64,000 nt of DNA from an uncultured cyanobacterium (GTDB lineage Bacteria > Cyanobacteriota > Cyanobacteriia > PCC-6307 > Cyanobiaceae): the NCBI GenBank assembly GCA_903935205.1, contig CAIZQU010000117.1:1-64000 (forward strand). The letters run 5' to 3'. Position numbers and translations under genes: made by a program. Below, in pieces: positions 17,050-52,497 of this stretch. Under the pieces are notes generated by a model. It worked only from the letters and a program-made list of their open reading frames with translations, did no database searches and had not been told where the DNA came from. Position 1 is the stretch's first letter. Each line of letters begins with the position of its first letter.

Positions 17050-19753
<2,704 letters not shown>

Positions 19754-25193: not shown

Positions 25194-25457
25194 ATGTCCC
25201 CCTCGGCCCCAGCAAGCTCCGCCAGCGACCCGGCCCCCCCGGTGGTCCAGCCCCTGGCGCCCGAAACCACCCCGGGGCCGCCGCTGCCGGAAGCTCTCGC
25301 CTTCTGGATCCGCACCCCCTGCGGCCGCGCCAAGTACGCCCGCCTCGCCGCCCGTCGCGGCCCGGTGGCGCAGCTGCGGCTGGCGTGGTTTGTGCTGATC
25401 GCGGCGCTGCGGGATCTGGGGCAGCCCCGGCCGGACGACGAGCTGGGGGGTGGGTAG
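25194..25457 (+). CDS. Small hypothetical protein downstream of the secretion operon
   Basis: 87 residues from ATG 25194, 4 bases after the HlyD stop, so probably in the same transcript. The N-terminal 35 residues are Pro/Ala/Ser-rich. Residues 36-75 (LAFWIRTPCGRAKYARLAAR then AWFVLIAALRDLG) look like an amphipathic helix plus one weak hydrophobic helix. No family is recognised. It could be an operon-specific accessory peptide, or a chance frame in GC-rich DNA. Confidence 0.45.
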   Translation: MSPSAPASSASDPAPPVVQPLAPETTPGPPLPEALAFWIRTPCGRAKYARLAARRGPVAQLRLAWFVLIAALRDLGQPRPDDELGGG

Positions 25458-27123: not shown

Positions 27124-30100
27124 TCAGGGGAGAGCAACCTGGATCAGATCGATCTGACCTCCTTCCACCAGATAACCGCTGCCCTGCAGGTTGCCGTTGC
27201 GCAGGCTGTGGGCCTGCACATTGGCGATGAACATCGATCCAGCCGCGGTCCCATAGAGGGAGGAGACATCGATGATGCCGGAAGATTCCCAGTTGCCGAT
27301 ATCCGTATCCGTGGGGCTGGTCACCGGGCTGGCGTCGGTCTGGCCATAGGACGTGGGCACCGAGCTGCGGTCGATCTGGGCCCAGCGGCTGGCCGCCCCC
27401 GTGGAGTTGCCGGTGACCGGATCGATCGCCAGCTTCCAGATCGAGGCCTCCTCGGTGCCGAACTGGCCGGTGCTGATGTTGGTGCCGCCACCGTTGGCCC
27501 GATCCTCCTGGAGGTAGGCGTAGCCGTTGGCGCTGATCGTCATGTTGTCGGGATTGCGCAGGCCGGTGGTCGGGTCGGTGAGCAGGTCTGCGTCGTAGAC
27601 GACCTTCAACTGCGAGGTTCCAGTGCCGGAAAGCAAGCCGTTGCTGGCGAAGGCATTGGCCAGATTGAGGGTATACACATTGCCGTAAAGATCACCATTG
27701 CTGAAGTCGGACGTGCCGGTCGAGACGAACACGGCCTGCTGGCCATTGAGGGGGTTGACCTCACCATCCTCGATGCGGCTGAGCTGCAGTGCGCCGGCAT
27801 CCACGGCCAGCTGGCGCAGGGCTGGGGCACCGAGCTGGGCGTAATTGGAATTGAGGCTGGCGAGATTCAGCCAACTGCCATTGATGGCGGTGTTCAGACC
27901 ATTGGCCTGAGTGAAGCTCAGCAGATCGGAGGAATCCGGACCCACGGGACTCACACCGTTTTCCGGCAGGGCCGTGGTCACGAAGGCGTGCAAGCTGCCC
28001 TGGTGGGCGGCCAGGCCATTGCGCTCCAGGAAGCTGGCCCCGGGGGCATTGCTCTTGGTGCCCACCCAGAGATAGAGGGGCGCCTTGGCATCATCGAACA
28101 GCAACACAGCCACCGTGCCGGCATGGCCGGTGTCGAGGATTGTGGCCGACTCCCAGGTGCCCTTGCCGAAGCCCACCAGCTCATGGATGGCACGGCCGTT
28201 GACATCAAGGGCGAAGAAGGAACCGCCGTCGCCGCTGAACTCCTCCTCACCCACCAGATAGGTGCGATTAGCGAAACCGCGGCCCGAGCCGAAGCTGTTG
28301 GCTTCCACCAGATTGGCGGCACAGAAGCGGCGGAACCCGGCAGATCCCAAATCGCTCACCGATGTGATCGCGGTAGCCGAACCATCGAGGTGGATGCTGT
28401 CGTAGGCCAGACCGCCCGCCAGGACGCGGCTCTGGTAGCCATTGGCAGGGTTGTTGTCGACATCCTTGGCGATCACCAGGCTGCTGACGCGGGCGCCGGT
28501 CAGGCCGCCGCTGACACCGGGCAGCACATAGCCGTAGCCGCTGGTTGCGCCGAGTTCGCTGTTGACCAACAGGGTGTAGGTGCCATCACCGTTGTCATAG
28601 GCCCCCTGGCCATCGAAGATGCCCGTGGGCGTGAACACACTGCTGCCGGCTGCCAGGCCATTGGTCACCTCACCGGCGGTGATCAGGCTGCTCAACTGCA
28701 GCGCATCGCCGCCGGCCACATCCTTGAGCATGGTGGGGCTGAAGGCACCGGCCGTGGCCACACCCTGGCTGCGCACCAGATCGCCGAGATCGAGATAGTC
28801 GAGCGTGTTCGACACCTCATTGGAGACCACCAGCATCGGCCGACCTGAAGGGCTGCGGTTGGCCTCGATCACCGCCAGACCCTCCGGGGAGAGGCTGTTG
28901 GGCAACACCACGCTGGTGACGAAGGCCACGGCGGCGGGGTTGGTCACATCAAACACCACGAGCATGCTGCTGGTGGTGCGCTCCTGGCCCACGATCGCGT
29001 AGGTGCGGCCCTCGAGCTTCGCCACGGCGACTCCTTCCGGCTCGGTGCCCTTGTCGTCACTGCGGCTGTCGTCGTAGACACCGGCCGCAATCGCCAGGGT
29101 CTGGAAGCTGTTGCCGCTGTCCCAGAGCAGGGCACCCGTGGTGGCATCGAACAGGCTGGCGCTGCGGCTGCCGAAGGAGGTGTAGGGAGTGGTGGTCAGC
29201 TCCGCAAGGGTCTTGAGGCGGCTGCTGATGCCCGTATTGCGGCGGACTTCATCGTTGAAGCTGCCAAAGTCGCGCCCGTCGCCTTCATTGGCGGTGATGA
29301 AATAATCATTGCCGGCGGCAAAACGGCCGGGGGTATTGAGGGTGAAGGCGGCGATGCCATCGGCCATGCGCAGACCGCGAACATTGTTGCCGATCACCGG
29401 CTTGAATTGAGTGCCAGTGCCGGCCGTGTTGTCTCGATCGGAGATATCAACAAGCTGCCGCGAGAAATCAACAGAGCCAAGATCGAACACCCGCTCGATC
29501 GTCTTGTTGCGCAGGTTGATCTTGGCAACGCCGTTATTTTCCTGCAGGGTCACATAGGCATAGTTGCCATTGATGCTCACAAATTCCGGTTCAATGTCGG
29601 TGGCCTGGGTGGAAAGGCCGGCCTGGCCGCTGATGCGGATCCCCGTTGGCAGGGAAAGTCCAGCGAACCCAAGCTCGGTGTAGCTGAAGCTCGGCGTACC
29701 GCCGGGGTTGCGGATATCGATGATGCCGATGCTGCCGGGCCGGTCGACCGGGGCGCCATTGACGGTGTAGTTGTAGGTGGGTTCACCCTCATTGGCCACC
29801 ACCAGCTGGGTGCCGGTGCTGTTGAAGGAGATGCCGTCGGGCAGATAGCCCACGATCACATCCTGCAGGAAGGTGAGACTGCCGTTGGCGCCGGCCCGGT
29901 AGAAGCGCACCACGCCCCGGCCACCCTGTCCCGGATTGGAGGCATTGCCGCCGTAATCGGAGGGCGAGAGGGCCACCGCCACCAACGTGCCGTACGTCGC
30001 CACCGCCTGCGACACCCAGGGGGCCTGGGTGGGCGAAACCGCGAGGGGGGCATTACCGAAACTGAGCCGCTGCACCAGGGCCGGAGCGGTCACGGCCGGA

Positions 30101-30327
30101 TTGGTGGAGCTGCTGACCTGCAAGGTGGTGCCACCGCCGGAGGAGATGGTGAAGCGCTGACCGCCCACCATCACCACGCTGGAGATCTCCGTCTGGAAGT
30201 TCTCGGTGGGCTGGGGGTTTGTGGTGGAAAGGTTGAGGCTGGCCTTGAGGGGCGTGACGCTGGCGCTGCGGCGCGCCGCGAGGTTGAACAGGATCGAGAG
30301 CCAGGATCCCGGGGTCGGCGAAGGCAT
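27124..30327 (-). CDS. Choice-of-anchor I protein with PhoX-like C-terminal propeller
   Basis: 1067 residues. The N-terminal half (about 80-520) is a choice-of-anchor I beta-propeller: LPDGISFNSTGTQLVVANEG, DIEPEFVSINGNYAYVTLQE, then GTEPEGVAVAKLEGRTYAIV. The C-terminal half (about 560-1067) resembles the DUF839/PhoX alkaline-phosphatase propeller (YTLLVNSELGATSGYGYVLP, RVSSLVIAKD, acidic EEEFSGDGG and late EDRANGGGTN). PhoX enzymes are calcium/iron phosphomonoesterases; activity here is inferred and the metal ligands were not mapped. No signal peptide is seen. A tandem SphR-type box lies 59 bases upstream (30386-30404), supporting phosphate-starvation control. Confidence 0.82.
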   Translation of the reverse strand: MPSPTPGSWLSILFNLAARRSASVTPLKASLNLSTTNPQPTENFQTEISSVVMVGGQRFTISSGGGTTLQVSSSTNPAVTAPALVQRLSFGNAPLAVSPTQAPWVSQAVATYGTLVAVALSPSDYGGNASNPGQGGRGVVRFYRAGANGSLTFLQDVIVGYLPDGISFNSTGTQLVVANEGEPTYNYTVNGAPVDRPGSIGIIDIRNPGGTPSFSYTELGFAGLSLPTGIRISGQAGLSTQATDIEPEFVSINGNYAYVTLQENNGVAKINLRNKTIERVFDLGSVDFSRQLVDISDRDNTAGTGTQFKPVIGNNVRGLRMADGIAAFTLNTPGRFAAGNDYFITANEGDGRDFGSFNDEVRRNTGISSRLKTLAELTTTPYTSFGSRSASLFDATTGALLWDSGNSFQTLAIAAGVYDDSRSDDKGTEPEGVAVAKLEGRTYAIVGQERTTSSMLVVFDVTNPAAVAFVTSVVLPNSLSPEGLAVIEANRSPSGRPMLVVSNEVSNTLDYLDLGDLVRSQGVATAGAFSPTMLKDVAGGDALQLSSLITAGEVTNGLAAGSSVFTPTGIFDGQGAYDNGDGTYTLLVNSELGATSGYGYVLPGVSGGLTGARVSSLVIAKDVDNNPANGYQSRVLAGGLAYDSIHLDGSATAITSVSDLGSAGFRRFCAANLVEANSFGSGRGFANRTYLVGEEEFSGDGGSFFALDVNGRAIHELVGFGKGTWESATILDTGHAGTVAVLLFDDAKAPLYLWVGTKSNAPGASFLERNGLAAHQGSLHAFVTTALPENGVSPVGPDSSDLLSFTQANGLNTAINGSWLNLASLNSNYAQLGAPALRQLAVDAGALQLSRIEDGEVNPLNGQQAVFVSTGTSDFSNGDLYGNVYTLNLANAFASNGLLSGTGTSQLKVVYDADLLTDPTTGLRNPDNMTISANGYAYLQEDRANGGGTNISTGQFGTEEASIWKLAIDPVTGNSTGAASRWAQIDRSSVPTSYGQTDASPVTSPTDTDIGNWESSGIIDVSSLYGTAAGSMFIANVQAHSLRNGNLQGSGYLVEGGQIDLIQVALP

Positions 30328-30385
30328 CGGCAGGGGTGCCGTGAAGGCATGGGTTGCCCACAGGCTCGCCAGCCGGAACAGCGAA

Positions 30386-30404
30386 AGGTTAGGCTGAGGT
30401 TAAA
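30386..30404 (-). promoter_or_regulatory. Candidate Pho box (SphR/PhoB site)
   Basis: On the minus strand two 8-mers TTTAACCT (30404-30397) and CCTAACCT (30393-30386) are separated by 3 bases. This matches the cyanobacterial Pho-box layout of tandem YTTAACCT-like repeats spaced by 3. It lies about 59 bases upstream of the start of the PhoX-like gene. Confidence 0.65.
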
Positions 30405-30489
30405 ACCCCATCAACAACTGGATAAGGGAGCAACCGCATCCCGGCACGGGCCAGGGCCTACCCGCCCGTGCCAACCCCCACCCAGCCGC

Positions 30490-31215
30490 TCAGCGCCCCT
30501 GGCGGAAAGCCGAAACGTGGTTGGCGATGGCATCGAGCGGCAGCACTTGGCGCACCGGCGGCGGGCCGCTGCGCGGCAATAGCCGCAGCGAGGCGTGGCC
30601 CGGCAGGGCGATCCACATCGCCAAACCCTGACCGCGAGCGAACTCACGCCCATCCCGGTAGCCCGAGCTGGCGGACTGCCAGCAGGCGTCCGTGCCGCCG
30701 ATGCTCACATACAGACGGGCGGGCTGCCATCGATGCGGGCGGCATCAATCCCGTTGGCGGCGGCGTTGTCCTGGGGGTAGAGGGCTCTGCCGGCATGGAC
30801 GCCAGCGCGTTGGCGGGCGTGGATCGGGGTGCAGAGCAGGGCTGCCGCTGAGCTGCCGATTGGAAATGGTGCTCCCAGTAGTCGTTGGTAAGGCCGGGGT
30901 GGGTGAGGATCTGGGAGTAGGCCTGCTCCACCACAGATCCCCTGGCGAGGCTGTCGTGGCGATGGCCCTCCTGGGGGGTGACGTCCTCGTTGATGCGGAA
31001 GCCGCTGTCGCGGTTCTCATCGAAGGTCACGGCGCGGCTGCGCCACGGCATCCCATCGATGTGGTCACCCACCAGCCCGATACCATGGCCTTGGCCGCAC
31101 AGGCTTGGCGGGCTGGCCGCCGCTGATCGCCTCCCCGAGCCGGAAGAAGCTGCTGAAAACAAACACATGGCAGCAGGTTGCCGGAGGCCCCGCCGAGGCT
31201 CGACCGCCGGCCGTT
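30490..31215 (-). pseudogene. Decayed 3' copy of the alpha-amylase gene
   Basis: The minus strand matches the 3' portion of the amylase at 47841-49451, in the same orientation, but in several frames. Shared text includes PWRSRAVTF, TPQEGHR, VEQAY, QILTHPGL in one frame and GGTDACW/ASSGYRDGRE and RQV near 30490-30708 in another. At least two frameshifts are needed (near 30830 and near 30720). The catalytic ENHDTG motif has become ENRDSG, so the transition-state histidine is lost. The catalytic domain upstream of about 31215, with motifs I-III, is absent. The nucleotide match is clear, for example in the shared ACTCACGCCCATCC-type stretch near 30645 and 47995. Confidence 0.85.
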
Positions 31216-31458
31216 GAAATGGCTGTGCGCCGCGGATGAGCCTGCGGATTGGAGAAGTGGGATGGAGATGTGGGATGGAGATGTGGAAACAACAAATTGC
31301 GGCAGAATCAATACTGAGCCTGGAGTTCGTCGGAAATCCATGTTTCTGCCGGCTGCGACAAGAAGCACATGGCACAGCTGGGGAGAAACAGAGCGTCTAG
31401 AAGGACAGACCGAACGGTCGAGGCAAGCTCAGGGGCGATCGAATACTACAGGACGTGA

Positions 31459-34400
31459 TCACAAAACCCGAGCGAAGTCAAAGCCAAAGACAAGATCATC
31501 GAAGTCGAGATCACCACCGCCAAAAAGATCTTCGAGACCGATCAAATTAGTGCCCAAGCTGCGAAAATGAGAAATGCCATCAGCATTAGCCGCAGAATAG
31601 GCAAAATAGGTATCATCATTAACCTTGGCAAAAGGAGCGGCAACGCTGGATTCATTCAGATCAAAGGAACGGCTAGAAGCCTGTCGGTTGGCAACTTGCA
31701 AAGAAGAAATAGCATCGATTATGTTATCGGGCCTTAATGCCTCAGCTTGATAGTTGGGATCGCCGGGACGCACAATGGTGATGCCATCGGAAGCACGAAC
31801 AGCACCGCTTACATCCAAACAGCGATAGAAGCCGGTCACCGAGTCATACATAGCCTCGCGAGCGAAGGACACAGATCCCTGGACTGACTGCGAGGTTCGA
31901 AACGCAGTAAAGTCCAGAACGGGAGCCAGGCTCTGCTGCTGACCCACGAGCGCGTTCAGCCCCTGATCACCATCGACAAGGCTAAGATCAAGAGAAATGC
32001 CGGAAGGAGAGGTATATTGAGACTCTTTCTCCGTGACCGTTGCAGCGTCCAGGAAGCGAAGGCGTGAATCATTAATGGTGCTGATCTCAGCCAGGCTTAC
32101 ATCGGCAACTTCAAACAAACGCACCGCTTGACCATTAAGCATTAAGATTTCCCGCCGGAAGTCAACACCAGAGGGCAGGGTTATATCCGTACTTTCAAGA
32201 GTAGAAACAAGCAATCGAGCGCGTCCACGGAGGCTCTCGATATCATCAACAACAGCTCCAGAATCGGCCAGCTCAGACTGATTCAGGACGATGTAATAGA
32301 TATTGGTAGAGACCTGGGTGCGGCTTGATATGTCAACACGAAGGGCCACGCTGGCGGGCAGGAGAGGAGAGGCTGAGTCAACAACACTGAGAAACCCACC
32401 AGCTGCCTGGCTGAAACCTGCGTGGATATCTGCATAGGCAGCGAAGGATGGATCGTCAAGAACACCATTGACCACACCATCTTTATCACCATAGCCGCCA
32501 TCCATGAGCGCCAGACTAAAGAAGTCGGGAACACCATTTCCGGAAAGGTTATAAAAACGCGCACCAGCCCACTGAATAGGGTCAAAGCTCAAAGGCGAGA
32601 TCTGACCAAAGCTGTCATAAGCATAATAGAGAAATTGGCGGTTAGGGATGCGTCCGGAGTTATCGCTCAGCGACGCCAGCAGATCAGAACCAACCAGTTC
32701 AAGCGACGAATTAAGAGCGGCAGAAGTCAATCCAGGCGTTAGACTTAGGGAAAAATCAATACTCCTGTCGCTTAATGTGACGCGTTGATCGTCAAGTTTT
32801 TGCCGCACTCCCTGCTGAAGAGTAAAATTAGACAGTATTTGAACAGTGCTGGAAGGAAGAAGATCACCTCCCGTAAATGTGATGGGGATCTGTCTCCGGC
32901 CGCCGAACTCTGTTTGAAGAGTGAAATCAAGCTGGCCGCGCTCACGCTTAAGTCCAGGGGTAATCTCTAGTTCAAAAGAGGCATTCGCCTGCTCAATAGA
33001 ATCGGCAATATCTCTATCATCCAAGACAATTTTGAGGCGATAGTTGCTTCGAACACTGGCATCCAGTGCCACTGCCTGGCGCAGGAACAAAGACCCGTCG
33101 CGAATCTCAAATAGAGAGGCATCTTGACCGGATAATAATGGGACATTATTGCCAAGGCGATCATCCGATATCACAAGATCAGCAAGGCGCAACGGCGTCG
33201 CTGTGCTTATGGTGTCGGGAAGAAAGGTGATGCGATTTACAAGGCGAACACTCGTCGCTGGCTCATTGATATCCCTTACAGCCAACGCAAGCTCCTGAAA
33301 GCGTGGCTTACTAGCAGGCAGTTCCGGATCAAGAACAGTTAAAGTGACACGATAAAGAGATTTAGATTCATGGTCGATGCGAACACCTGGTCTGAGATAA
33401 AGCGACTGATCAATAATCTCGAATGAGCTGGAGTCGGGCCCTGCTATCGAGACAACCACACTACCGAGTGCATCGTCCTCAATCGCAAGATCAGCGATCC
33501 GCAAGCGCTCTGCCAAGGGGGGTTGCTCGTCAATCGCTTCGACCCTGTTAATGAGAGATAGGCTTGATGGAGGCTCGTTAACATCAAGAATCTGCAGATT
33601 AAGCTCTGTAGTCAATGGTGCGCCAGCAACCAGATCGGGGTCCTGAGCGCTGATCACGACCTGATAGCTGGACTTTAGTTCGTAATCAAGAATAACGCCA
33701 ACGCCAAGGAATATCTGGTTGTCTTTAATAAAGAAGGAGCTGGAGTCTTCACCCGAAAGAGCCAGGAGAACACTGCCAATGGCATCGTCCGCAACAACAA
33801 TATCAGCAACCTTGAGCGCCGTGGACGTAGACGTATTCTCAGGCAATGGAGTCGTCGGCGTGAGCGTCACAGACGACGGCGGGAGATTAAGCGTTAAAGG
33901 CTGTTGGTATGGAGTCACAGCAGTACCGTCATATAAGCCAAGCGATAACACCAAGTCGTCCAGGTCAGCCTTACTGAAATTCGCGGGGGCAGTGGCTCGC
34001 AATACCGTCCCGCTCGTGCGGATCCAGTCCGGACCGTCAAGGATGATGATCTGCAGGGAGTCGCCGTCATCATCTCGAACGGCTTGTCCAAGATCCACCA
34101 CTACCTCCTGAGCCTGTTTAAGAGTGATTGGAGCAGGGATCTGTTTGAGTTCAGGAACGGCGTTAATGGAGATATTTAATGCCTGCAGCTGGGTACGCAG
34201 GGAAGACCAATCACCCATAGGCGACTGACCATCAAGCAGAAGCACATCGAGACCTCTTTCGAAGTCGAGAATGCGCAATGGCCCCCCCGACGTAGCATCT
34301 ACGGAAGAGCTGTCAATGAAGAAACGGTCGGGCTTTCTATCAGCCTCGGCGATGGTGCCGGATCCAAAAACAGGGGCGTTGCGAAGGAGCCGGCCGCCAA

Positions 34401-37400
34401 TCACCTGATCGGACAGCGGAATCAAGAACATCTGATCTGCATCAGCGCCACCAATCAGCAGGTTCTCTCCCTGGCTGTCGGTGTTGAACAGGTCATCACT
34501 GCCGCCGGCAGCATCGATCAGGGATCCGACCCCGGCAAAGATGCGGTCGCCAGCGTCTGAACCCTGAACGGTAACGTCAGCCAGTTGAACGCCAGAGCGA
34601 GGTAGGGTGGCGTAATCACTAGGGGAGAGGAGAACCTGGCCAGCGGAAGTATCAACGGCCATAGCGAGCACAAGGTCAAGTTCGTGCCAGCCTGGCTGCC
34701 AGCTGATGACCGGCAAAGCCTCGGGCTGGAGACTGATGCTGAGATCACTAGAAACGACGACACCCTCACTGGACCACTGGCCTGGAGCTGGATGAGAATT
34801 CACACCATTGAGAAACTGGAAGTTACCGACGACATGCTGAGGTGTAAGAGTGAGATCGAGAAAGCCGCGACGATTGGTATCGGCATAGCTCAGTCCGTTC
34901 ACATAGCCTTTGAACAGGCCATCGAGGCCATCCACGGCGGGATAGACCGCCCGGATGTAGGCGTCGGCGCTGGGAAGAACCCGTTCAAGGCCTGGTGATG
35001 TCACACCCGGGGTGGCGAATTCCACTCCCGCCACCGTGCCGGCCGGCCGGTTGCTGGGAGCCATGGTGTCGAGCACCCCGGCCCAGGCGTTGTGGGTGTC
35101 GCCGGCGAGGCTGATCAGTCGCTTGCCCAGAGCCAGGGCGCTCTGCAGGATCGTCTCCCGCTCCACGCCATAGCCGTCCCAGGCATCGAGGTTGTAGGGG
35201 ATCTTGCCAGCCTCGTCGAATAAGGCCTGCTCTGCGGGTGTGAGATCGGCAAAAGCGGTGCCGGTGGCCAGCTTCTGCAGCGGAGCGGCGTACTTGTCGA
35301 GCAGGCTGGGATCAGAGGCGTTGAGCAGCAGCTCGGCGGGAACGGCCATGCTCTGCATCAGGGTCTGCTGGCCCAGCAACTGCCAGGAGGCGCTGGAGCT
35401 GGCGAGCTGCCGCTGCAGCCAAGCCAGCTGACCGTCGCCGATCATGTCGCGGCCGGTATCCCCCAAGGCCTTCTGCACGGTGGCGAGCACAAGCTCCAGG
35501 GTGACGGCCGGCGCCAGAGCGGCGGCGAAGGCCGAAGTGACGGCGGGGTCGGCTGGTGGGGTAAGGCCGAGCTGAACGGCATAGGCAGCCACCTGGGCCG
35601 GATCGGCCAGGATGGCCGCGATCCGGGCCTGCACAGCAGCGGCGTCGGGGTAGGCCAGCTGCTCATCACGGGCGGTGAGCCGGGTTTCAAGCATGTGCAG
35701 GCTGAGCACATCGCCGAAGCTGAAGGAGCGGTAGGCCTGGCTGAGCGGCGAGAGGGCGCTGGCGTCGTCGCTGGCCTGGCGCTGGCGGGGCTCACGGATG
35801 GGCAGCCACTCGTAGTAGGCCTGGAGAGCGGCATCACGGCGGGCCGTCCAGTCGCCCTCCGTTTCGCTCTGATGGTTTTGGGCAGCGCCGCTCCAGCTGT
35901 TGTTGGCGGTCTCGTGGTCGTCCCAGCCGGCGATCAGCGGTGCGATGGCCCGCAGGTTCTGCAGGTTGCTGTCGGTGTGGTACTGGGCGTAGCGCTGGCG
36001 GTAGTCGTCGAGGGCGATGATCTCGCGATTCGGCAGGAAGCCCCGCTCTGCGGCGGCATCCTCGGCGGTTCCGTAGCCAGCGGGGCCGTACTCGTAGATG
36101 TAGTCGCCAAGGTGCAGCAGGGCGTCGTAAGGATTGAGGGCGTGTGTCGCGGCGGCGCGGCCGTAGGCGGCGAACCTTTCGGCCGCCGTGAAGTTGGCGC
36201 AGGAGAACACCGCCAGCCGAACCGGATCGCTTCCCAGCGGCAGGGTCTTGGTCTGCCCCACCATCGACACCGCATCGCCGGCGCGGAAGCGGTAGTAGTA
36301 GCTGGTGTCGGCGCTGAGGCCGTCTGCTTCCACCTTCACGGTCCAGTCGCGGCCGGCGCTGGTGGCGAACACGCCGCTACCCCTGATCGAGCCGGGCGCG
36401 AAGTCGGCGCTGCTGGCTAACTCCCACTGCACATCGAGCAGCCCGTGGAAACCGTCGGGCGTGGTGAGACGGGTCCAGAGGATCACCGAATCGGCGTAGG
36501 GATCGCCGGAGGCCACACCGTGGGCAAAGGCGAGCCCGACAGGTAAAGCGCGGCCCAGATCCAGATCGAGCAGAAGGGGGTCGTGGTCGGAGGTGCGGAA
36601 GGGATCGGCCGCGAAAAAGTCGCGTACCGACGCATTGCCGTTGCTGTTGGAGTCGAAGTTGTAGTCGCGGAAGGCGCCTTCGGCGGCATTGATGGTCCAG
36701 TCGAGGGCGCTGCTGGCCTGGGGAACCAGCGAGGCCGAGATCAGCATGTGATCGAGGGCGCCGCTCATGTCCACCGGGTTGTAGAAGGCGTAGCTCGACG
36801 GCGGCTCGGCCGTGAAGGTCGGCAGCACATTGCGGTAGCCGGCCGCTTCGATCACCCGGATCGGATCCTCCTTGGCGTAGGCATTAAGATCGCCAAGGAT
36901 CACCCAGTCACGGTCGCTGTTGCCGGTGGGAGCGGTGGCGATCCAATCGAGCAGTCGGGCGGCCGCCGCTGTGCGGGTGGCGTTGTAGGCCGCCTGGCCA
37001 TCGAGTTGATCGAGATCGGCGCCAGTGGCATCGGTGGCACCCTTCGACTTGAGGTGGTTGACGACCACATTCACGATTTCACTCGTCGCCAGTTCCCGGA
37101 ACGCCTGGGCCAGGGCCGGACGGTTCTTCGCAGTGCCACTGGCCAGGGGATCGACGAACGCCTGGCTGTTCAGCACCTGGGCGGCCCCACTCGGAGCCAC
37201 CGCCAGGTTGTTGTAGATCAGACCCACCTTGATCGCATCGGTGCCGATCAGGCCGGTGGGCACAAAGCTGTAGGAACGGCCCGAGCCGATGGGCTGGGCG
37301 GCGTTGAGCCGCTGCACGATCGCCGCCAGGGTGGCGTCATCGGCGTCGTTCTCCAGCTCCATCAGGCCGATCACATCCGCCTTCAGACCCACCAACGCCG

Positions 37401-39351
37401 CGGTGAGCTTGCTGAGCTGGCGCTCCAGCTCCTCGGCGCTGTTGGCACCGCGCGGCGGCTGGCCGCTGTCGGTGAGGGCGCCAGCGACATTGAGGGTGGT
37501 GAAGGTGTTGAGCACGTTGAAGCTCGCCAGCCTGATCTGCCCGGCCGCAGGGGCTGCCGGCGCCGCAGGCCGGGGGTTTGCACTGAGGAAGCTGAGCGGC
37601 GCGGTGGGGTGGAGCCTGTACTTGCTGAAGTCGTAGGCGAGCACACCCTCCACGGCCGTGATCGCGTCGCCGCGACGCAGCAGCTGATCGCGGACAGGCG
37701 CCGCTGCCGTGGCCGCTGAAGCGGGTCGGTAGCTGCTGTTGCTGCCGTCGTCGAGCACCAGCTCGCGCCGGGCGGTGGCCTGCTCAGCGGTGTAGGCCGC
37801 AGCGCCGGGCTCGATCACGTTGGTGGGCTGCTGCGGCAGGCCACCGGCACTGAGCTCGATCTCCCCGAAGCGGAACTGCCCATAGAGCCCATTCACGGAG
37901 AGGGTTTCCGGAAAGCGCACCCACATGCCCTCGTAGGGCTCGAGATCGAGGGAGGCGTTGCGCTGGGCCAGCAGGTCGGGGATGTCGAGGCGGCGGGTGT
38001 CGGAAAGACGTCCCTGGGCCTCCACGCTGAGCGCCGACACGCTGGTGATCACCGTCTGCCCGAAGCGCTCACCCACCAGGCCGCTCACCAGCACCCGATC
38101 CCCGAGCGCCACGTTGCCATTACTGCCGGAGTGGGGGTAGGCCACGTAGAGCCCTTCGGAGCTGAGGGCGCTGCTGTCCCAATCGCCGCTCTCCTCCTGG
38201 AGGAAGAAGCCCCCCAGCTCGCCACTGAGCTGGAAATCGCCCACGACCACGGCCCGCAGGGTCACGCTTTGGTCCAGCAGGGGGCTGCTGGCGCCGCTGC
38301 CCTGCACCGCCGAGATCAGGCTGATGCGGTCGTTGTCGAGCAGGGTGAGATCTACGATGGCTCCCGAGGCGGCCAGGTTGGTGCCGGCAGGCGCCGTGAT
38401 CTGGAAGCGAAGCGTTTCGGTGCCTTCATCGAGGATGTCGTCGAGCAGGCCGATCGCCAGATCCACACTGGCTGCGCCCACAGGGATGGTTAGGTTGGCG
38501 GGGAGCGGTGAACTGAGATCAGCGGCACTGGCAAGGCCGGGACCAGCCACGAGGCTGATCGGAACCACGAGCTCGGCCGCCGTGGAGCCGGACCGGCTGA
38601 GGCGAAGGAGGGCGCCATCGCCGGATTCCACGGCAGTGGCGTCGAGAGCCTGAAGCGTCAGCTCAGGCTGGACCGGCGGCGGGGCGAGGCTGATGGCGAA
38701 GTCATCGATCGCCAGACCGTGGTCGTTGCCGCTGTCGTTGGTCTCGATCCAGCGCAGCCAGAGGGTGGAGCCGGACGCCCAAGGGTTGGCGGAGAGATCA
38801 AGGCTGCCGCCACGAGCCGTCAGACGCCCGGCGCCGTTGCCATCCACCACTGCCGCCGTAGCTGTGGCGACGGGGGAGGACCAGTTGAAGTTACCGCCCG
38901 GTGATACCCAGGAGGTCACCTGATCAAAGCTGGTGCCGTAGCCATACTCGAGCACCATCGTCTGGGGGGTGGCGTTGCCGCCGTTGCGCCACTGCTCGCC
39001 GTTGAAGGAGAGGTTGAGGCTGCTGATCGCGCTGCCGCTGGCATTGCTGAGGGAGAGAGCAAACCACCCGGCCACTGCACCACTGGCCGGCGAACCGTAA
39101 TAAGAACCGCCAGAAGCGAGACCGCCAAGCGCCCGCTCGCTGCTACCGCTGGCGCCATAACTCACGAAGGCACCACCTGTGCTGGCACCTATGTCAGCGT
39201 TGTAAGTGGTGAGGGCAATGGGGGTTGGTGCTGGCTGGCGAAACAGATACCAGCCCGAAAGGGTTAAATCATTGGCCCAGGAATTGCCTGACCCAGTGGC
39301 CGCCAGCGAATCAAACGATTGGTTGTAGGTGCCGGTGAAGCTGGCTGGCAT
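31459..39351 (-). CDS. Giant NucH/ExeM nuclease - PhoD phosphatase - cadherin-like - DUF4114 fusion
   Basis: 2630 residues. Order: N-terminal beta region (1-220), Calx-beta-like (225-345), OB/lamin-like region of ExeM nucleases (350-600), endonuclease/exonuclease/phosphatase domain (604-935) with E665, H766, D821/N823 (GDLN) and H923 (SDHD); then a PhoD phosphatase (940-1510) with C1051, D1083 (HLGDYIYEYG), WDDHE (1143-1147) and GDTH (D1418, H1420); an RTX-like acidic patch (1600-1660); three cadherin-like repeats (about 1830-2150); and a C-terminal DUF4114 motif (LEDLFGGGDLDFDDLVFGFD). It could cut extracellular DNA and release phosphate from the products. GC falls sharply downstream of about 34.5 kb: 26/60 at 33001-33060 against 37/60 at 37201-37260. 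No signal peptide; type I export is inferred. Confidence 0.9.
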   Translation of the reverse strand: MPASFTGTYNQSFDSLAATGSGNSWANDLTLSGWYLFRQPAPTPIALTTYNADIGASTGGAFVSYGASGSSERALGGLASGGSYYGSPASGAVAGWFALSLSNASGSAISSLNLSFNGEQWRNGGNATPQTMVLEYGYGTSFDQVTSWVSPGGNFNWSSPVATATAAVVDGNGAGRLTARGGSLDLSANPWASGSTLWLRWIETNDSGNDHGLAIDDFAISLAPPPVQPELTLQALDATAVESGDGALLRLSRSGSTAAELVVPISLVAGPGLASAADLSSPLPANLTIPVGAASVDLAIGLLDDILDEGTETLRFQITAPAGTNLAASGAIVDLTLLDNDRISLISAVQGSGASSPLLDQSVTLRAVVVGDFQLSGELGGFFLQEESGDWDSSALSSEGLYVAYPHSGSNGNVALGDRVLVSGLVGERFGQTVITSVSALSVEAQGRLSDTRRLDIPDLLAQRNASLDLEPYEGMWVRFPETLSVNGLYGQFRFGEIELSAGGLPQQPTNVIEPGAAAYTAEQATARRELVLDDGSNSSYRPASAATAAAPVRDQLLRRGDAITAVEGVLAYDFSKYRLHPTAPLSFLSANPRPAAPAAPAAGQIRLASFNVLNTFTTLNVAGALTDSGQPPRGANSAEELERQLSKLTAALVGLKADVIGLMELENDADDATLAAIVQRLNAAQPIGSGRSYSFVPTGLIGTDAIKVGLIYNNLAVAPSGAAQVLNSQAFVDPLASGTAKNRPALAQAFRELATSEIVNVVVNHLKSKGATDATGADLDQLDGQAAYNATRTAAAARLLDWIATAPTGNSDRDWVILGDLNAYAKEDPIRVIEAAGYRNVLPTFTAEPPSSYAFYNPVDMSGALDHMLISASLVPQASSALDWTINAAEGAFRDYNFDSNSNGNASVRDFFAADPFRTSDHDPLLLDLDLGRALPVGLAFAHGVASGDPYADSVILWTRLTTPDGFHGLLDVQWELASSADFAPGSIRGSGVFATSAGRDWTVKVEADGLSADTSYYYRFRAGDAVSMVGQTKTLPLGSDPVRLAVFSCANFTAAERFAAYGRAAATHALNPYDALLHLGDYIYEYGPAGYGTAEDAAAERGFLPNREIIALDDYRQRYAQYHTDSNLQNLRAIAPLIAGWDDHETANNSWSGAAQNHQSETEGDWTARRDAALQAYYEWLPIREPRQRQASDDASALSPLSQAYRSFSFGDVLSLHMLETRLTARDEQLAYPDAAAVQARIAAILADPAQVAAYAVQLGLTPPADPAVTSAFAAALAPAVTLELVLATVQKALGDTGRDMIGDGQLAWLQRQLASSSASWQLLGQQTLMQSMAVPAELLLNASDPSLLDKYAAPLQKLATGTAFADLTPAEQALFDEAGKIPYNLDAWDGYGVERETILQSALALGKRLISLAGDTHNAWAGVLDTMAPSNRPAGTVAGVEFATPGVTSPGLERVLPSADAYIRAVYPAVDGLDGLFKGYVNGLSYADTNRRGFLDLTLTPQHVVGNFQFLNGVNSHPAPGQWSSEGVVVSSDLSISLQPEALPVISWQPGWHELDLVLAMAVDTSAGQVLLSPSDYATLPRSGVQLADVTVQGSDAGDRIFAGVGSLIDAAGGSDDLFNTDSQGENLLIGGADADQMFLIPLSDQVIGGRLLRNAPVFGSGTIAEADRKPDRFFIDSSSVDATSGGPLRILDFERGLDVLLLDGQSPMGDWSSLRTQLQALNISINAVPELKQIPAPITLKQAQEVVVDLGQAVRDDDGDSLQIIILDGPDWIRTSGTVLRATAPANFSKADLDDLVLSLGLYDGTAVTPYQQPLTLNLPPSSVTLTPTTPLPENTSTSTALKVADIVVADDAIGSVLLALSGEDSSSFFIKDNQIFLGVGVILDYELKSSYQVVISAQDPDLVAGAPLTTELNLQILDVNEPPSSLSLINRVEAIDEQPPLAERLRIADLAIEDDALGSVVVSIAGPDSSSFEIIDQSLYLRPGVRIDHESKSLYRVTLTVLDPELPASKPRFQELALAVRDINEPATSVRLVNRITFLPDTISTATPLRLADLVISDDRLGNNVPLLSGQDASLFEIRDGSLFLRQAVALDASVRSNYRLKIVLDDRDIADSIEQANASFELEITPGLKRERGQLDFTLQTEFGGRRQIPITFTGGDLLPSSTVQILSNFTLQQGVRQKLDDQRVTLSDRSIDFSLSLTPGLTSAALNSSLELVGSDLLASLSDNSGRIPNRQFLYYAYDSFGQISPLSFDPIQWAGARFYNLSGNGVPDFFSLALMDGGYGDKDGVVNGVLDDPSFAAYADIHAGFSQAAGGFLSVVDSASPLLPASVALRVDISSRTQVSTNIYYIVLNQSELADSGAVVDDIESLRGRARLLVSTLESTDITLPSGVDFRREILMLNGQAVRLFEVADVSLAEISTINDSRLRFLDAATVTEKESQYTSPSGISLDLSLVDGDQGLNALVGQQQSLAPVLDFTAFRTSQSVQGSVSFAREAMYDSVTGFYRCLDVSGAVRASDGITIVRPGDPNYQAEALRPDNIIDAISSLQVANRQASSRSFDLNESSVAAPFAKVNDDTYFAYSAANADGISHFRSLGTNLIGLEDLFGGGDLDFDDLVFGFDFARVL

Positions 39352-39376
39352 GGGTCAGGATGCGAAACAACTGAAA

Positions 39377-39393
39377 GACGACGTGACGTCGTC
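39377..39393 (-). other. Short perfect inverted repeat upstream of the nuclease-PhoD gene
   Basis: GACGACG and CGTCGTC with a 3-base spacer, about 25 bases before the start codon at 39351. On the transcript it would form a tight hairpin followed by TTTC. It may be a leader structure or a dimer-binding site; there is no direct evidence for either. Confidence 0.4.
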
Positions 39394-39419
39394 GAAATTG
39401 GCAGGGAGTGGCTAAATAG

Positions 39420-39462
39420 AAAAAGATGCCACCCACCCATCACGTGGAAAGTGAGCGGCATC
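39420..39462 (-). terminator. Terminator after the PhoA-RTX gene
   Basis: Read on the minus strand, GATGCCGCTCAC (39462-39451) pairs with GTGGGTGGCATC (39436-39425) over 12 positions, two of them G-U, and is followed by TTTTT (39424-39420). It begins 10 bases after the phosphatase stop and separates that gene from the nuclease-PhoD gene. Confidence 0.8.
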
Positions 39463-39472
39463 CGAGATCAAA

Positions 39473-42019
39473 TCAGACCAACCCAGCGAAGTTGGTTTGG
39501 CTATTGAGGCTGGAGGCACTGATGTTGGCGAAATGGCCCACCTCCACACCGGCCACCTTCATTAGGGTGTCGCCACCCACCTGGGTGAAGCTGAGGCTGG
39601 AGAAAGCCACGCCCACGAGGCCCACCTTGTCTTCGCCCACCTTGAAGTCCATCACGAACTGCTTGGCGGATGGGCGATCGCCTATCTCGCTTACTAGCCA
39701 GATCTGGTCGGCACCGGCACCGCCGTTGAGATGGTTGGTTCCGGCTCCTCCGAGCGCATAGAACTTGTCGTCGCCTGCGCCGCCGAGGGCGCGGTTGCCG
39801 GAGCTGCCGAGGACGAAGGTGTCATTGCCGAGGCCGCCGCTGAGGCGGTTGCCATCGCCTGCTTCGGCGCTGAACCAATCATCACCGCTGCCGCCGGTGA
39901 TCACATCGCGGGTACCAGCGAAGATGGTGTCTGCACCGGAGCCGGTGAAGATCGTGTTGCGGAAGCCGTTGTTAAGGGCACTGTCGACTTCGTCGGAGCC
40001 AGCTCCCGTGAAGACAGTGTTGGCCTTGAAGGTGAGCTGTTCGGCGGGTTGGGCGTCGAGCAGAAGATCGTCACTGCTGCTAGATGAAACCGTGGGACTC
40101 ACGATCGCATTCTGAGCGGTAACCAGGCGATCTTCGGCAGTTTCCCCCCCCAACAGCATGGCATCCATCGCCTTGGCCACATGAGCTTGGTCCACCATGC
40201 CGGGCACACCATTGATCACCGTGCCATAAGCCTCGATGCCAGTGCTCACGAATTCTTCGATGAGCTCGCTGTCTGCGCCCTGGTAATAGAGGGGTACGGG
40301 CCGCTGGGTGTGGGTCCACCAGCCATCGCCGATGCCGATGCTGCCGTCCTTGAGAGTGGTGGTGGTGCCCCAGAAGTGGCCCACCTTCTCTGCATCGCCG
40401 CTCACCCACTGGCTGGTGCCACTACGGGTGAGGGTTGGGGTGAGCAGCGTGTCGTAACCCTTGTTGCCGCCTTCGGTGGGTTCATTGGAGCCCTGCTTGC
40501 TGGCCAGAATCGATTCGGCCACTTCCTTGGGGAAGTTCGGCAGCAATGTGAGGTAATGGTCATGATCTGCTGTGACCATCACGGTGTTCTCATCCCAGCC
40601 ACCGTTGGCTTTGACCCAATCCGTCACGGTGGTGGTGACATCATTGAGGTCGTGCATGGTGCCGAGCATCAAATCCATGTTGTCGGCGTGGGCTGCCCAG
40701 TCAACATCACCAACCTCCACCATCAGCCAGAAGCCATCTTCATCCTTGCCAAGGGCTTCAAGAGCCTGGCCAGCCAGCTGGGCGACGGTGGGGTTTGCCT
40801 TGAGCTCTCGTGCCAGAGCATCACCCGAGAGGGCGGTGTTGGCGGAGGAGAGATTGGAGTTGGTGACATAGGCGCCAGTGCCCGTAGCCGAATAGTCACT
40901 ATCGGCGGTACGCCAAGGCAGGTTGCCGCCCTGGCCTTTAGCTCCATAGATCCCCATCAGGTGATCGGTCTCTGGATCAAAGGCATTGACAGCGGCCTCG
41001 AGGATTTCGAGAGCACTCTTCTGAGCGTTGGCGTCTGTGTAGTTGTCCGGTCTGGCGACGACAGTCCAGCCTTCCTGGCTGACGCTCGGGCCAGATGGAA
41101 TCTGAGTCAGGATGGGCTTTCCAGCTGAATCGGTTCCAGTCACTTCCTGCTGGCTGACCTTGTAGCTGCCGTCCATGAGTCGGTTCAGCGTTGCAGCATT
41201 CACATAGCTGCTGCCACCGGCCGGGTTACCTGCACCTAGTACAACCTGGGGTTGGGCGTGGAACAAGATCTCATCGAGAATGTTGTCGGTGAGATCGAGT
41301 GGATGACCGTCCACGCCAAACTTACCAGCGTTGGAGGACTCCTGGTACTTATTACGATTATTGACGTTGGCAACCGCTGCGGCGGGAGTGGCGTGATTAA
41401 TCGGCACAGATGTGACGACACCACCAGACTTACCCTGCTCCTGAGCCTCCATCAGGATGGATTCAAACCCATGCTCATGAATATCGACGGAGATGGCACC
41501 ATTGTACGTTTTGATGCCGCCGTAGAGAGTTGATGCCGTATTAGCAGAATCGGGATAGTCACCTTTGATGTACTCAGGATCAAAGCCCGGTGAAGTGGCG
41601 CCTCTGTTTTGGTAGTAGTTCGCGTCCCAAGGGAATTCGCCACCCTTTTTACTTTGCCAATTTACATAAGTAAGGGAAGGGTCAAAAACGAAGCCTTCTC
41701 GCAGAGGAGAGTCGCCAGTATTATGCGTGCGGGTATCTCCTTGTAAAGCACTATTGTCCACATCACCGTCGATCTTAGTCGAGCCAGTTGTTGCAAGCGT
41801 GAATCCCGTAAAGTCCTGATAAGGACTACCGAAACCTTTACCGGCAGTGTAATAATAGTCAAGGGTGCGCGTAGCGAACAGAGCATTGATCTCCGTTGTG
41901 GCCTTACCCTGCCCAATCAGGAGATCAATTTCGCTTTGAACATGCTTGTAAATGGCGCTGGCTCGGGACATTTCCCAGCCCATGCCATCGCCGATGATCA
42001 GAATGATGTTCTTGGACAT
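39473..42019 (-). CDS. PhoA-type alkaline phosphatase with RTX C terminus
   Basis: 848 residues. The alkaline-phosphatase fold carries metal and catalytic motifs: IIGDGMG (D11), the phosphorylated serine in YPDSANTAS (S158), EVGDVDWAAH (E435, D438, D440, H444), TADHDH (D485, H486) and a late H in KVGHFWGT. It hydrolyses phosphomonoesters. From about 668 to 790 there are RTX-like calcium-binding repeats (TIFAGTRDVITGGSGDD, LSGGLGNDTF, LNGGAGADQI), then an 60-residue beta end. Residues 690-848 are closely similar to the C terminus of the neighbouring 1805-residue protein. There is no N-terminal signal peptide, and RTX ends are typical of type I export. A terminator follows. Confidence 0.92.
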   Translation of the reverse strand: MSKNIILIIGDGMGWEMSRASAIYKHVQSEIDLLIGQGKATTEINALFATRTLDYYYTAGKGFGSPYQDFTGFTLATTGSTKIDGDVDNSALQGDTRTHNTGDSPLREGFVFDPSLTYVNWQSKKGGEFPWDANYYQNRGATSPGFDPEYIKGDYPDSANTASTLYGGIKTYNGAISVDIHEHGFESILMEAQEQGKSGGVVTSVPINHATPAAAVANVNNRNKYQESSNAGKFGVDGHPLDLTDNILDEILFHAQPQVVLGAGNPAGGSSYVNAATLNRLMDGSYKVSQQEVTGTDSAGKPILTQIPSGPSVSQEGWTVVARPDNYTDANAQKSALEILEAAVNAFDPETDHLMGIYGAKGQGGNLPWRTADSDYSATGTGAYVTNSNLSSANTALSGDALARELKANPTVAQLAGQALEALGKDEDGFWLMVEVGDVDWAAHADNMDLMLGTMHDLNDVTTTVTDWVKANGGWDENTVMVTADHDHYLTLLPNFPKEVAESILASKQGSNEPTEGGNKGYDTLLTPTLTRSGTSQWVSGDAEKVGHFWGTTTTLKDGSIGIGDGWWTHTQRPVPLYYQGADSELIEEFVSTGIEAYGTVINGVPGMVDQAHVAKAMDAMLLGGETAEDRLVTAQNAIVSPTVSSSSSDDLLLDAQPAEQLTFKANTVFTGAGSDEVDSALNNGFRNTIFTGSGADTIFAGTRDVITGGSGDDWFSAEAGDGNRLSGGLGNDTFVLGSSGNRALGGAGDDKFYALGGAGTNHLNGGAGADQIWLVSEIGDRPSAKQFVMDFKVGEDKVGLVGVAFSSLSFTQVGGDTLMKVAGVEVGHFANISASSLNSQTNFAGLV

Positions 42020-42203
42020 TGTCAGGATTAGCGAGGGTGAGTGAGTAGAGAGCTACGGCTAAAGGTTATAAGCAGCAAAATCGAATCCGGCACTTATGAA
42101 TCAAATCCTATGGGAGCCCACTCAGGGCGGCAGCGTGGCTTTTAGTTCAAAAGACACAGCTGCTACAGGCTTAGTATCGCAAGAGCCAAAGGGGCTTGCT
42201 GTG

Positions 42204-42232
42204 CCTGGAACACAGCGCTCATGTGTTCCAGG
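42204..42232 (-). terminator. Strong hairpin after the phytase/nucleotidase gene
   Basis: An 11-bp perfect stem CCTGGAACACA (42204-42214) and TGTGTTCCAGG (42222-42232) with a 7-base loop, starting 15 bases after the stop on the minus strand. No T-run follows on that strand, so it may protect the 3' end rather than terminate by itself. Confidence 0.55.
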
Positions 42233-42247
42233 TTGCAGAAATGGCAA

Positions 42248-45200
42248 TCAGGCGAACACAAAGTTGCCTGGATCGCTGAGGGTGCTGGCGTTCACGTTGG
42301 TGAACTGGCCGATGATGGCACCACCGAGACTGAGCAAGGTGTTGGCCCCAGTCTGGCTGAAGCTCAGATCGGTGAAGGCTGCGCCCTGCAGACCCACCTT
42401 ATCAACTCCGGCGGTGAAATCCATCACCACCTGATAGACGGCAGGCAGATCACCAGGGCCGCTCACCAGCCAGAACTGGTCATTGCCGGCACCACCATTA
42501 AGGTAGTTGGTGCCAGCACTCTCAAGCACGATGAACATGTCGTTCCCTGCACCACCGAGGGCACGATTACCTGAGGTTTCGATGTAGAAGATATCGTTAC
42601 CGATGCCACCGCTCATGCGGTTGCCATCGCCGGCTTGGGCATAGAACACGTCATCACCGCTGCCACCGGTGATCACATCGCGGCTGCCAGCAAAGATGCT
42701 ATCGACACCAAAGCCTGTGAAGATGGTGTTATCATAGCCGCTGCGTATTTCCACATCGACGACGTCGTCGCCAGATCCCGTAAATACTGTATCGAGCTTG
42801 CCATCGAAACCCGGGATCGTCGATGAATCCGGATCGGTGGAATCATTGCCAAAGCCACCGACCCGAACAGGATCAACCACTGTGTCTTCGCGCAGCGCAA
42901 TATTCTGAAGTCGTAGATCCTGGCTGCGAGGGGTTTCCTGCTGGCTGTAAGCCTGGGCAGCAGCGCCATGGTTGGCCTTCAGATATTCCGCCAGGGCATC
43001 CTGCTCGGTGCCATCACCGGCAAAGCTAGCGGCACCAGTGCGGGGAGCGGTGCTATCAAACAGATCCACACGGTTGACTGAGGCATCGGTGGGGAAGGGG
43101 TAGCTGTCACCGCCGCTGGCCAGGAAGTTGAGGGTCACGATGCGGTAGGTGCGGCTGGCGTCGCCCAGGAGAGAGCCGCCACGCACCACCACATCCAGGT
43201 CATTGCCCTGGCTGTCCTGAATCGCCAGATTGACGATGCGACTGCCGGCCGGCTTGGTGAGATCAAAACTGAAGGCCACACCGCTCACCTGGGGGAAGCG
43301 TCCCTGGTTGGGATAGAGGGCAATGCCGTGTTCCAGCAGCTCCTTGAGCTTGCTGGCCGTCACGGTCACCAGGGAGAGGTTGTTGTTAAAGCGCAGGGAG
43401 TTTTCAATGTCGAGGGTGGAAACACCGCCTGCGGGCTTCCCTGCAGCAGGGTTGGCGGAGGTAAGGCCCTTGGCCCCAGTCACCACATCAACGCCACCGA
43501 TCTGGGAGCGGATGCCGCCGCCGTTCTTCAGCGACAACACCACCGTGGGATCGATCCTGCGAGCGTAGTCGAGATTGGCGTCAGCAGTGAGATTGCCGAG
43601 GTTGGTTTCCTCAGAGCGAACGAAGGCACGCTCACCCTCAAGGTACACATTGGAATAGCCCCACACCTGGCCATCCTTGCTGCTGATCACCGCCTGCACG
43701 GCATCGGTAAGGTCCTGCACGTTCTCGCCTTTGCTGCCCTCGGCGAAGGCGGTGACGGCCAGCTGGGATTCACTCACATTCCAGGCTGCGGCCACGTTGG
43801 CTGGCGTGGCGGCATAGGCACCGCTCACCAGGGGATCGATGCTGGAGGGGATGATGCGGCCCTGGGCATCGAAATCGAGCACCAGACGACCGAGATAGGT
43901 GTATTCGTTGTCAGTGTTCACGATCAGCGTGGTGTTGCCGTCCGCCCCGGCGGTCAGCAGCGGGTAGGCATCCGCGAAGCTGGCGGCATGGCCGGGGAAA
44001 GCGACGGCCTGATCGTTGCCATCGCCCAGGCGGGTGTTGGAACCACCGGCGAGGATGATGTCGACACCGCGCAGCAGCGGCGCCAATTCCTTCTCGTTGC
44101 CAAGCTGCTGCAGGTGAGCCTGCAGGATCACTTTGTTCACGCCCTGACCCGTCAGGTCATCGATCACCGGTTGCAGCTGGCTGGCCAGCAGTGCCATGTC
44201 GTCGCGCTCGCTGCCGTCTCCGGTAAACCCCTTCACCTCCACCCCACCGGTGGAGCTGATCTGCTCGACGATCTGGGTCGTGGCACCCACCAGGCCGATC
44301 CTCTCGCCGTTCTTGGTCACCACGGCCGAGGGCACGATCCGACCCTTCTGGGCACTGGCCTCTTCGAGGCCTGCCGTGGCGATGGTGTTGGTGAAGCGGG
44401 GGTTGAGATCCCCATCGGCGCTGAAGTTGAGGTTGGCCGAGAGGTAAGGGAACTGGGCACCCACCCAACCGGAACCGGGTGTGATCGCATCGCGGAAGAC
44501 GCGCGAGCCCAGATCAAACTCATGGTTGCCGACCGTGGAGGCCTCAACGCCGATGAGGTTGTGGATGGCAATATCCACCGCCGCGATCGAATGGTTGGTG
44601 GTGGCAGACAGGCTGATCGTGGAGCCAGTGGTGGTGTTGAGCTCATCGCGCACGCTCAGATCGGTACCACCACTGAGGAAGGGTCCGGGAATGAAGTTGT
44701 CACCACCGGCGAGGATCAGCGTGTTGGCGTGGGTGTGATCAAAACCATCTACCAGGGCCGCCAGATAGGGCGCGGTCTGGGAGGCGAGCAGACCCGCCTC
44801 GCCATCGGCCAGATGGAGGAGCTGGAGGCGGTAGGGAATCGGGAAATCAACGATCGAGACCACATCATTACCTTCGCTGGAGGCGATCACGCTGCGGGCC
44901 GCGTTGGTGGCGGAGGTGAGGAAGGTGATGCCCTCCACCCGCGTGGCACCTGGGAAGATCACCGGCTCAACCGCCACCGGTGCATAGGGATTGGAGACAT
45001 CAAAAATCGCTGCCATGCTGGTGGTGGCGCGCTCCAAGGCAACGAAGGCGTAGGTGCGGCCGTTGATGCTGAAGACCTCCACCATTTCGGGTTCAACGCC
45101 CTTGGCATCTTCGCGATCGTTGAGCGGATAGAGCCCACGGGCATTGGCAAGATCTTCGAGAGCGACGCCGGAATCCCAGACCACGTTTCCCTTGGAATCG

Positions 45201-47665: not shown

Positions 47666-47702
47666 AAAGCAACCTCCACTGAAACAAATACCCCCCCGCC
47701 CT

Positions 47703-47721
47703 TGGCTAAGAACTCGTTAAC
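47703..47721 (-). promoter_or_regulatory. Candidate Pho box upstream of the 1805-residue gene
   Basis: On the minus strand GTTAACGA (47721-47714), 3 bases, then CTTAGCCA (47710-47703), about 38 bases before the GTG start. The spacing matches a Pho box, but each half-site departs from YTTAACCT, so this is weaker than the site at 30386. Confidence 0.4.
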
Positions 47722-47840
47722 AGAACAGTGCGTCGCATTGGCCGCCACACCGTCAGACAAGCAGCAACACAGCATCAAGCATCCGAGCGCACAGGCTGCA
47801 GCACCGCTGTTCGGACGGTTGATTGGATTGGCTGGCCTTC

Positions 47841-49451: not shown

Positions 49452-49876
49452 GGCGACGGCGCGGATCCAGCGAGTCCCCAGGATGCACGGGAACGTCAAG
49501 GCCTGGGGGCCGCTGAGCCCAGGCGGGAGCACCGCTGGCGGGTGAACAGGGCAGACGGCGAACAGCAAAGGTGGTGAACACCGCAGACGGCGAGCAACGC
49601 CAGCGGCGAGGGAGCGGAGGCTTCCGTCAGCGGGGGAGGCGAACGAGGAGGCGCAAGCGGGAGACGAAAGGAGGGGGCCCAAGGAGGGGAGGGCAGAGGG
49701 AGGCGGCACCAGGGACCGCCTGCGCAGGCCGCCCCTCTCCCCCATCGGGACGACGACCGCAGGGGGGTAGCGTTGTCTCTCTGCCGATCACCAGGGCAGC
49801 CCGCCAGCGGCAACGGATCTGCGGGGACGCCTCCAGAAATTGTCGGCTTGCGACACTGTTTCAAAAGCGCACGGGT
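49452..49876. other. Divergent intergenic region with a purine-rich tract
   Basis: No gene is supported. About 49600-49735 is strongly purine-biased on the plus strand (runs such as GAGGAGGCG, GGGAGACGAAAGGAGGGGG). A short direct repeat, GCAGACGGCGAACAGCAA near 49550 and GCAGACGGCGAGCAAC near 49584, lies just before it. Promoters for the amylase and the monooxygenase must lie here but no clear -10/-35 pair was picked out. Confidence 0.4.
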
Positions 49877-52452: not shown

Positions 52453-52497
52453 GTCCGGCAGCATGGCTGGCGGTCGCCTGTTGGCAAGCTCGAACGA

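Follow-up and report, generated by a model that had tools for sequence, protein, structure and literature searches.

Campbell-type single-crossover insertion-duplication yields integrated DNA that is flanked by direct repeats, and partial tandem duplications are common in their own right. For the amylase that is duplicated at the locus described here, the nearest solved structures are barley-amylase-like GH13 enzymes (best PDB matches 2qps, 3bsg, and 1ht6). For the phosphatase genes that lie between the two amylase copies, the closest described arrangement is found in relatives from the same genus, in which the set A-(B)-C lies between psaB and psaL, without an amylase (genomes G013, G023, G149, G004, G183, G279, and G002).

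The present locus lies within a window of 64,000 nucleotides, i.e., the whole stretch of DNA that was analysed, from an uncultured member of the Cyanobiaceae. As in a Campbell-type insertion, a complete copy and a 5'-truncated copy of one gene (amy and amy') point the same way and flank DNA that differs from them in composition; unlike in such an insertion, neither a donor circle nor a recombinase was found here, and the decay of the copies hides the crossover point. The enclosed cassette has the same genes in the same order and orientation as the psaB–psaL set, whose representative in G013 has a full B in the middle position. In contrast to that set, it occupies the spot between gene D and a gene for a FAD oxidoreductase, near type I secretion genes. 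From a comparison of gene order with relatives, the most plausible reading is that the entire block amy'-C-B-A-amy was gained between D and the FAD gene in the lineage of the window. Literature searches returned nothing specific to this arrangement, which represents a gene duplication with cassette gain of an ordinary type that can be read with ease, and the general principle is well known.

Layout of the locus and the intact amylase

The features of the region are collected in Table 1. The sequence-only reading described a phosphatase island bracketed by the two amylase copies; this holds for the three genes C, B, and A (31.2–47.84 kb), whereas the fourth phosphatase-type gene, D, lies outside the bracket. 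The RTX-type C-terminal regions of B (39581–40018) and A (42353–42790) are 71.5% identical in DNA and 62% identical in protein over 180 residues, and are, judging by this similarity, a common secretion tail. Neither a second full copy of B or C nor a third copy of the amylase was found in the 3.82 Mb assembly.

Table 1. Features of the region between gene D and the FAD oxidoreductase gene, with positions in the window
Feature	Position	Strand	Basis and remarks
D: choice-of-anchor I and PhoX-type gene	27124..30327	-	Pfam PF22494, PF05787; resident neighbour to the left of the insertion
Conserved upstream region of D	30328..30429	-	67.7% DNA identity with G001 (L086) over 30200-30429
amy': decayed, 5'-truncated amylase copy	30490..31210	-	Clear similarity ~30541-31210
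Phosphatase cassette C-B-A	31211..47840	-	G+C 0.55-0.60 vs 0.69 in amy' and amy
C: 2630-residue PhoD-type protein; Exo_endo_phos, cadherin, and DUF4114 domains	31459..39351	-	Domains; relatives
B: PhoA-type alkaline phosphatase, RTX C-terminal region	39473..42019	-	G334, G013 relatives at 78-79%
A: choice-of-anchor I, phytase-like, and 5'-nucleotidase C domains	42248..47665	-	Domains; relatives
amy: intact GH13 alpha-amylase ORF	47841..49745	-	PF00128, PF07821; true start probably near 49457
FAD oxidoreductase ORF, resident right neighbour	49571..51037	+	PF01494; homology from ~49916; adjoins D in G334, G339

On its domain content, amy belongs to the GH13 alpha-amylases and carries an Alpha-amyl_C2 domain, since both domains score above their curated cut-offs (PF00128, 25.3 bits against a cut-off of 22; PF07821, 34.6 bits against 27). 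By inspection, the catalytic D, E, and D positions are kept (GWRYDMVH, VGEYDW, and ENHD), and the gene is complete to its stop, with a C-terminus of the type that is usual among relatives. Homologues begin at about residue 90–155 of the ORF, which is the reason for the probable start given in Table 1. The amylase is patchy in the family, being present in three of the 400 sampled genomes besides that of the window, and in the amylase tree the window sequence groups with those of G111, G334, and G339 (SH-aLRT 99), next to Acidobacteriota. No viral contig holds a close relative of the amylase, and neither does the plasmid collection, in which the sole match is distant and lies in a Prevotella replicon; a donor of the cassette with an amylase piece may, however, be missing from the sampled sequences.

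Extent and decay of the truncated amylase copy

A blastn comparison of positions 30001–31800 with the window gave a single other match, in which 30544–31165 aligns with 47895–48517 in plus/plus orientation with 86.2% identity over 624 bases (728 bits); the best score after shuffling the fragment 20 times was 35.6 bits. The match of 30490–31215 with the 3' part of the intact amylase on the same strand, which had been noted from the letters of the sequence, was thus reproduced. A looser alignment carries the similarity to about 31210. The coding strand of amy' is the minus strand, and the fragment spans codons ~393 to 621 in the 3' part of the gene, and perhaps continues to the stop. At its 5' end, on the cassette side, the copy is cut off abruptly at about codon 393 (31210). 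At the opposite end, clear similarity ceases at about codon 617–621 of 634; beyond codon 621, the copy stays in register to a TGA at about 30490 with weak similarity, and 26 of the 57 bases of this tail match in register, as compared with 12–20 in eight other registers among those tested. It is therefore likely that amy' extends to its own stop at about 30490, although the lack of a clear alignment past codon 621 may point to a truncation at both ends. While amy and amy' are 86% identical in DNA, the nearest other amylase found reaches about 63% protein identity at best; the two copies are thus much closer to each other than to any other amylase, which argues for a duplication within this lineage.

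The decay of the copy is evident from several kinds of change. The frameshifts and the H-to-R replacement that the sequence-only reading had listed were recovered, with a +1 shift near 31103 and −1 shifts near 30842 and 30721, and further indels occur near 31165–31187. Unlike GH13 amylases, amy' is without the first two catalytic residues as a result of its truncation and has ENRD in place of ENHD in the third motif (codon 461). The substitutions between amy and amy' number 36, 32, and 27 at the three codon positions (0.164, 0.145, and 0.122, respectively), and the differing codons comprise 64 nonsynonymous and 16 synonymous cases; this even spread across codon positions, together with the ratio of nonsynonymous to synonymous changes, shows that amy' decays unconstrained. 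Among the replacements that could be polarised, 46 of 51 fall on the amy' side; selection acting on the intact copy shifts this count in the same direction. By the homology beyond chance, the disabling changes, and the absence of selective constraint that its sequence presents, amy' is a decayed gene duplicate (pseudogene). Such a dead copy beside an intact one offers a small internal yardstick of unconstrained decay.

Third-position changes between amy (47841–48517) and amy' (30490–31210) are not in excess, which suggests that the intact amylase has accumulated few synonymous changes since the two copies separated. The longest identical run between the two copies is 32 bp. Loss of the island by recombination between them, which had been raised earlier, is possible in principle, and nothing shows its occurrence.

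The insertion site and the cassette in relatives

In G334 and G339, D and the FAD gene are adjacent, roughly 300–400 bp apart, with neither cassette nor amylase between them, and the same gene follows the FAD gene as in the window (50893–52464). The 800 bp around the D–FAD junction are 84% alike in these two genomes, and their amylases are found on other contigs, where DUF1611 and alanine-racemase-like genes adjoin them. In four further genomes (G149, G004, G003, and G256), D directly adjoins valS, again without an amylase. The expectation that relatives lacking the island would carry a single amylase at the junction therefore failed in these genomes, although a D-amy-FAD intermediate may have existed outside the sample. 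This also bears on the direction of the change, because a loss by recombination between the copies would leave one amylase at the junction, and none is present there; the block was thus most probably gained in the lineage of the window rather than lost in the relatives. A decayed amylase copy was not found in any relative, so that the arrangement named earlier as refuting a duplication of, or recombination at, the amylase locus, a decayed copy without the island, was not encountered. Altogether, an insertion followed by decay of the truncated copy is highly probable.

Two genes past the FAD gene, the window encodes an AAA ATPase of the AAA_21/AAA_15 type (52498–54294), with no match in the stretches read from the empty-site relatives.

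The limits of the cassette were drawn from base composition. The G+C fraction drops from 0.69 to about 0.55 at 31.2 kb and rises from about 0.57 to 0.8 at 47.84 kb, which places both limits at the repeat edges; composition by itself is a weak basis for such limits. The exact bases of the junctions have been lost with the age of the event, and the intergenic DNA of the relatives is too diverged to fix the junctions to the base. The G+C of the amylase resembles that of the host, whereas that of the cassette differs. Pfam scans of the large genes (and of part of the small ORFs) detected no transposase or integrase at the cassette limits, and there are no strong inverted repeats at either junction; these searches thus gave no sign of the recombinase genes or terminal inverted repeats of a composite transposon or integrative element at the limits.

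In other members of the genus, the amylase and the cassette occur independently, as separate units. Six of the genomes with the psaB–psaL set (G013, G023, G149, G004, G183, and G279) were compared with the window ORF by ORF, in place of tblastx synteny, which was too noisy in this G+C-rich DNA, and only the cassette genes were common to both; the contig of G149 ends within C, and its psaL side is outside view. Gene A of the window is closest to those of G317, G290, G383, G370, and G010 (77–81% over most parts), as compared with about 57–61% for the psaB–psaL set, of which the first part of the G002 gene reaches 71%. At the ligA/type I secretion locus of G010, a gene A adjoins VTT; G317 has one between ligA and VTT, and its FAD gene follows about 8 kb beyond. 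These placements indicate that the neighbourhood of the window repeatedly hosts such genes. Accessory phosphorus-scavenging cassettes thus occupy different fixed chromosomal spots within one genus.

Routes to the present arrangement

What the data settle is that an insertion and a decay took place; they do not settle the route. As an explanation of the whole, we favour a gain of the cassette by a single recombination at the amylase, followed by decay, and our confidence in it is evenly balanced. The single-crossover route, the decisive step of which we infer, is offered more tentatively. An amylase gene would already have sat at the D–FAD spot before the cassette, and a donor carrying the cassette together with a 3' piece of an amylase (from about codon 393) would have integrated by a single crossover. 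The crossover would have left the complete gene on the promoter side and a promoterless, 5'-truncated copy on the far side, whereupon the truncated copy would have decayed unconstrained and the complete one would have been retained. Direct copies that flank the inserted DNA are consistent with this route, as is the coincidence of the cassette limits, placed by composition, with the repeat edges, which one event would predict. Against it stands the absence, from the data examined, of a D-amy-FAD intermediate (sought among 42 genomes of the genus), a circular donor, and an integrase or transposase at the junctions. The earlier proposal that the island arose by duplication or recombination at the amylase locus therefore survives in part: it agrees with the direct copies and with the limits at the repeat edges, but the pre-existing amylase that it presumes is unsupported, as D and the FAD gene are adjacent in relatives.

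The direct orientation of the copies would also follow if the amylase at the D–FAD spot had first been partly duplicated in tandem and the cassette had been inserted between the copies later. However, the cassette would then have had to land precisely where the truncated copy ends, and a relative that carries two amylases but lacks the cassette was not found, which makes this order of events somewhat unlikely. It is unlikely, too, that the block was assembled elsewhere, as amy'-C-B-A-amy or amy-A-B-C, and arrived as a unit from another lineage: the empty sites, which lack amylase and cassette alike, and the patchiness of the amylase in the family would fit such an arrival, but no genome examined links the amylase with the cassette, and the G+C of the amylase is host-like while that of the cassette is not. 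An assembly artefact, which a draft genome of 169 contigs might invite, is very improbable, since copies that are 86% identical are not easily collapsed or misjoined, the outer flanks are true old neighbours in relatives, and the cassette order is the same as in G013. A large segmental duplication of amy-A, with D as the diverged second copy of A, is scarcely credible even though the choice-of-anchor I regions of D and A share 32–35% protein identity and each gene lies directly downstream of an amylase copy, as these two genes have diverged from each other far more than amy and amy' have. D was rejected as a second gene A because it is long established at its site, and its neighbours are conserved in many relatives that lack an amylase at this position.

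Beyond this locus, a broader reading would hold that a secreted-phosphatase cassette moves home repeatedly in the genus (psaB–psaL or ligA/type I secretion/FAD), with the amylase serving as a homologous landing site and the truncated copy remaining as a scar; we regard this as decidedly improbable. The present locus illustrates that a flanking duplicate, even when decayed, can mark the event by which a cassette was placed, and its value is local.

Two contigs of this genome, C2 (L127, after psaB) and C99 (L130, after psaL), end about 700 bp beyond those genes and have a 24 bp motif in common. The C2 end resembles the start of a transposase (MNRIQFQPGMSLSQFLELYG), which may be IS1595-like, and the contig end on the psaL side gave no match to a transposase family. 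A transfer mediated by an insertion sequence was considered and rejected for the window, where the motif occurs only with three mismatches (10577 and 36027) and not at the junctions.

In the same genome, positions 1–3741 of L122 (contig C118) hold a second ligA 3' end, 82.8% identical in DNA to window positions 19490–19698, along with a piece resembling 25320–25415 and the initial third of a further gene A (74% in DNA); L122 represents a second locus or else comes from a related strain within the assembly. At the left end of the window, positions 1–200 and 340–539 form a direct repeat of 200 bp that is 98.5% identical, upstream of a protein (682–4284) with SdrD_B-like repeats.
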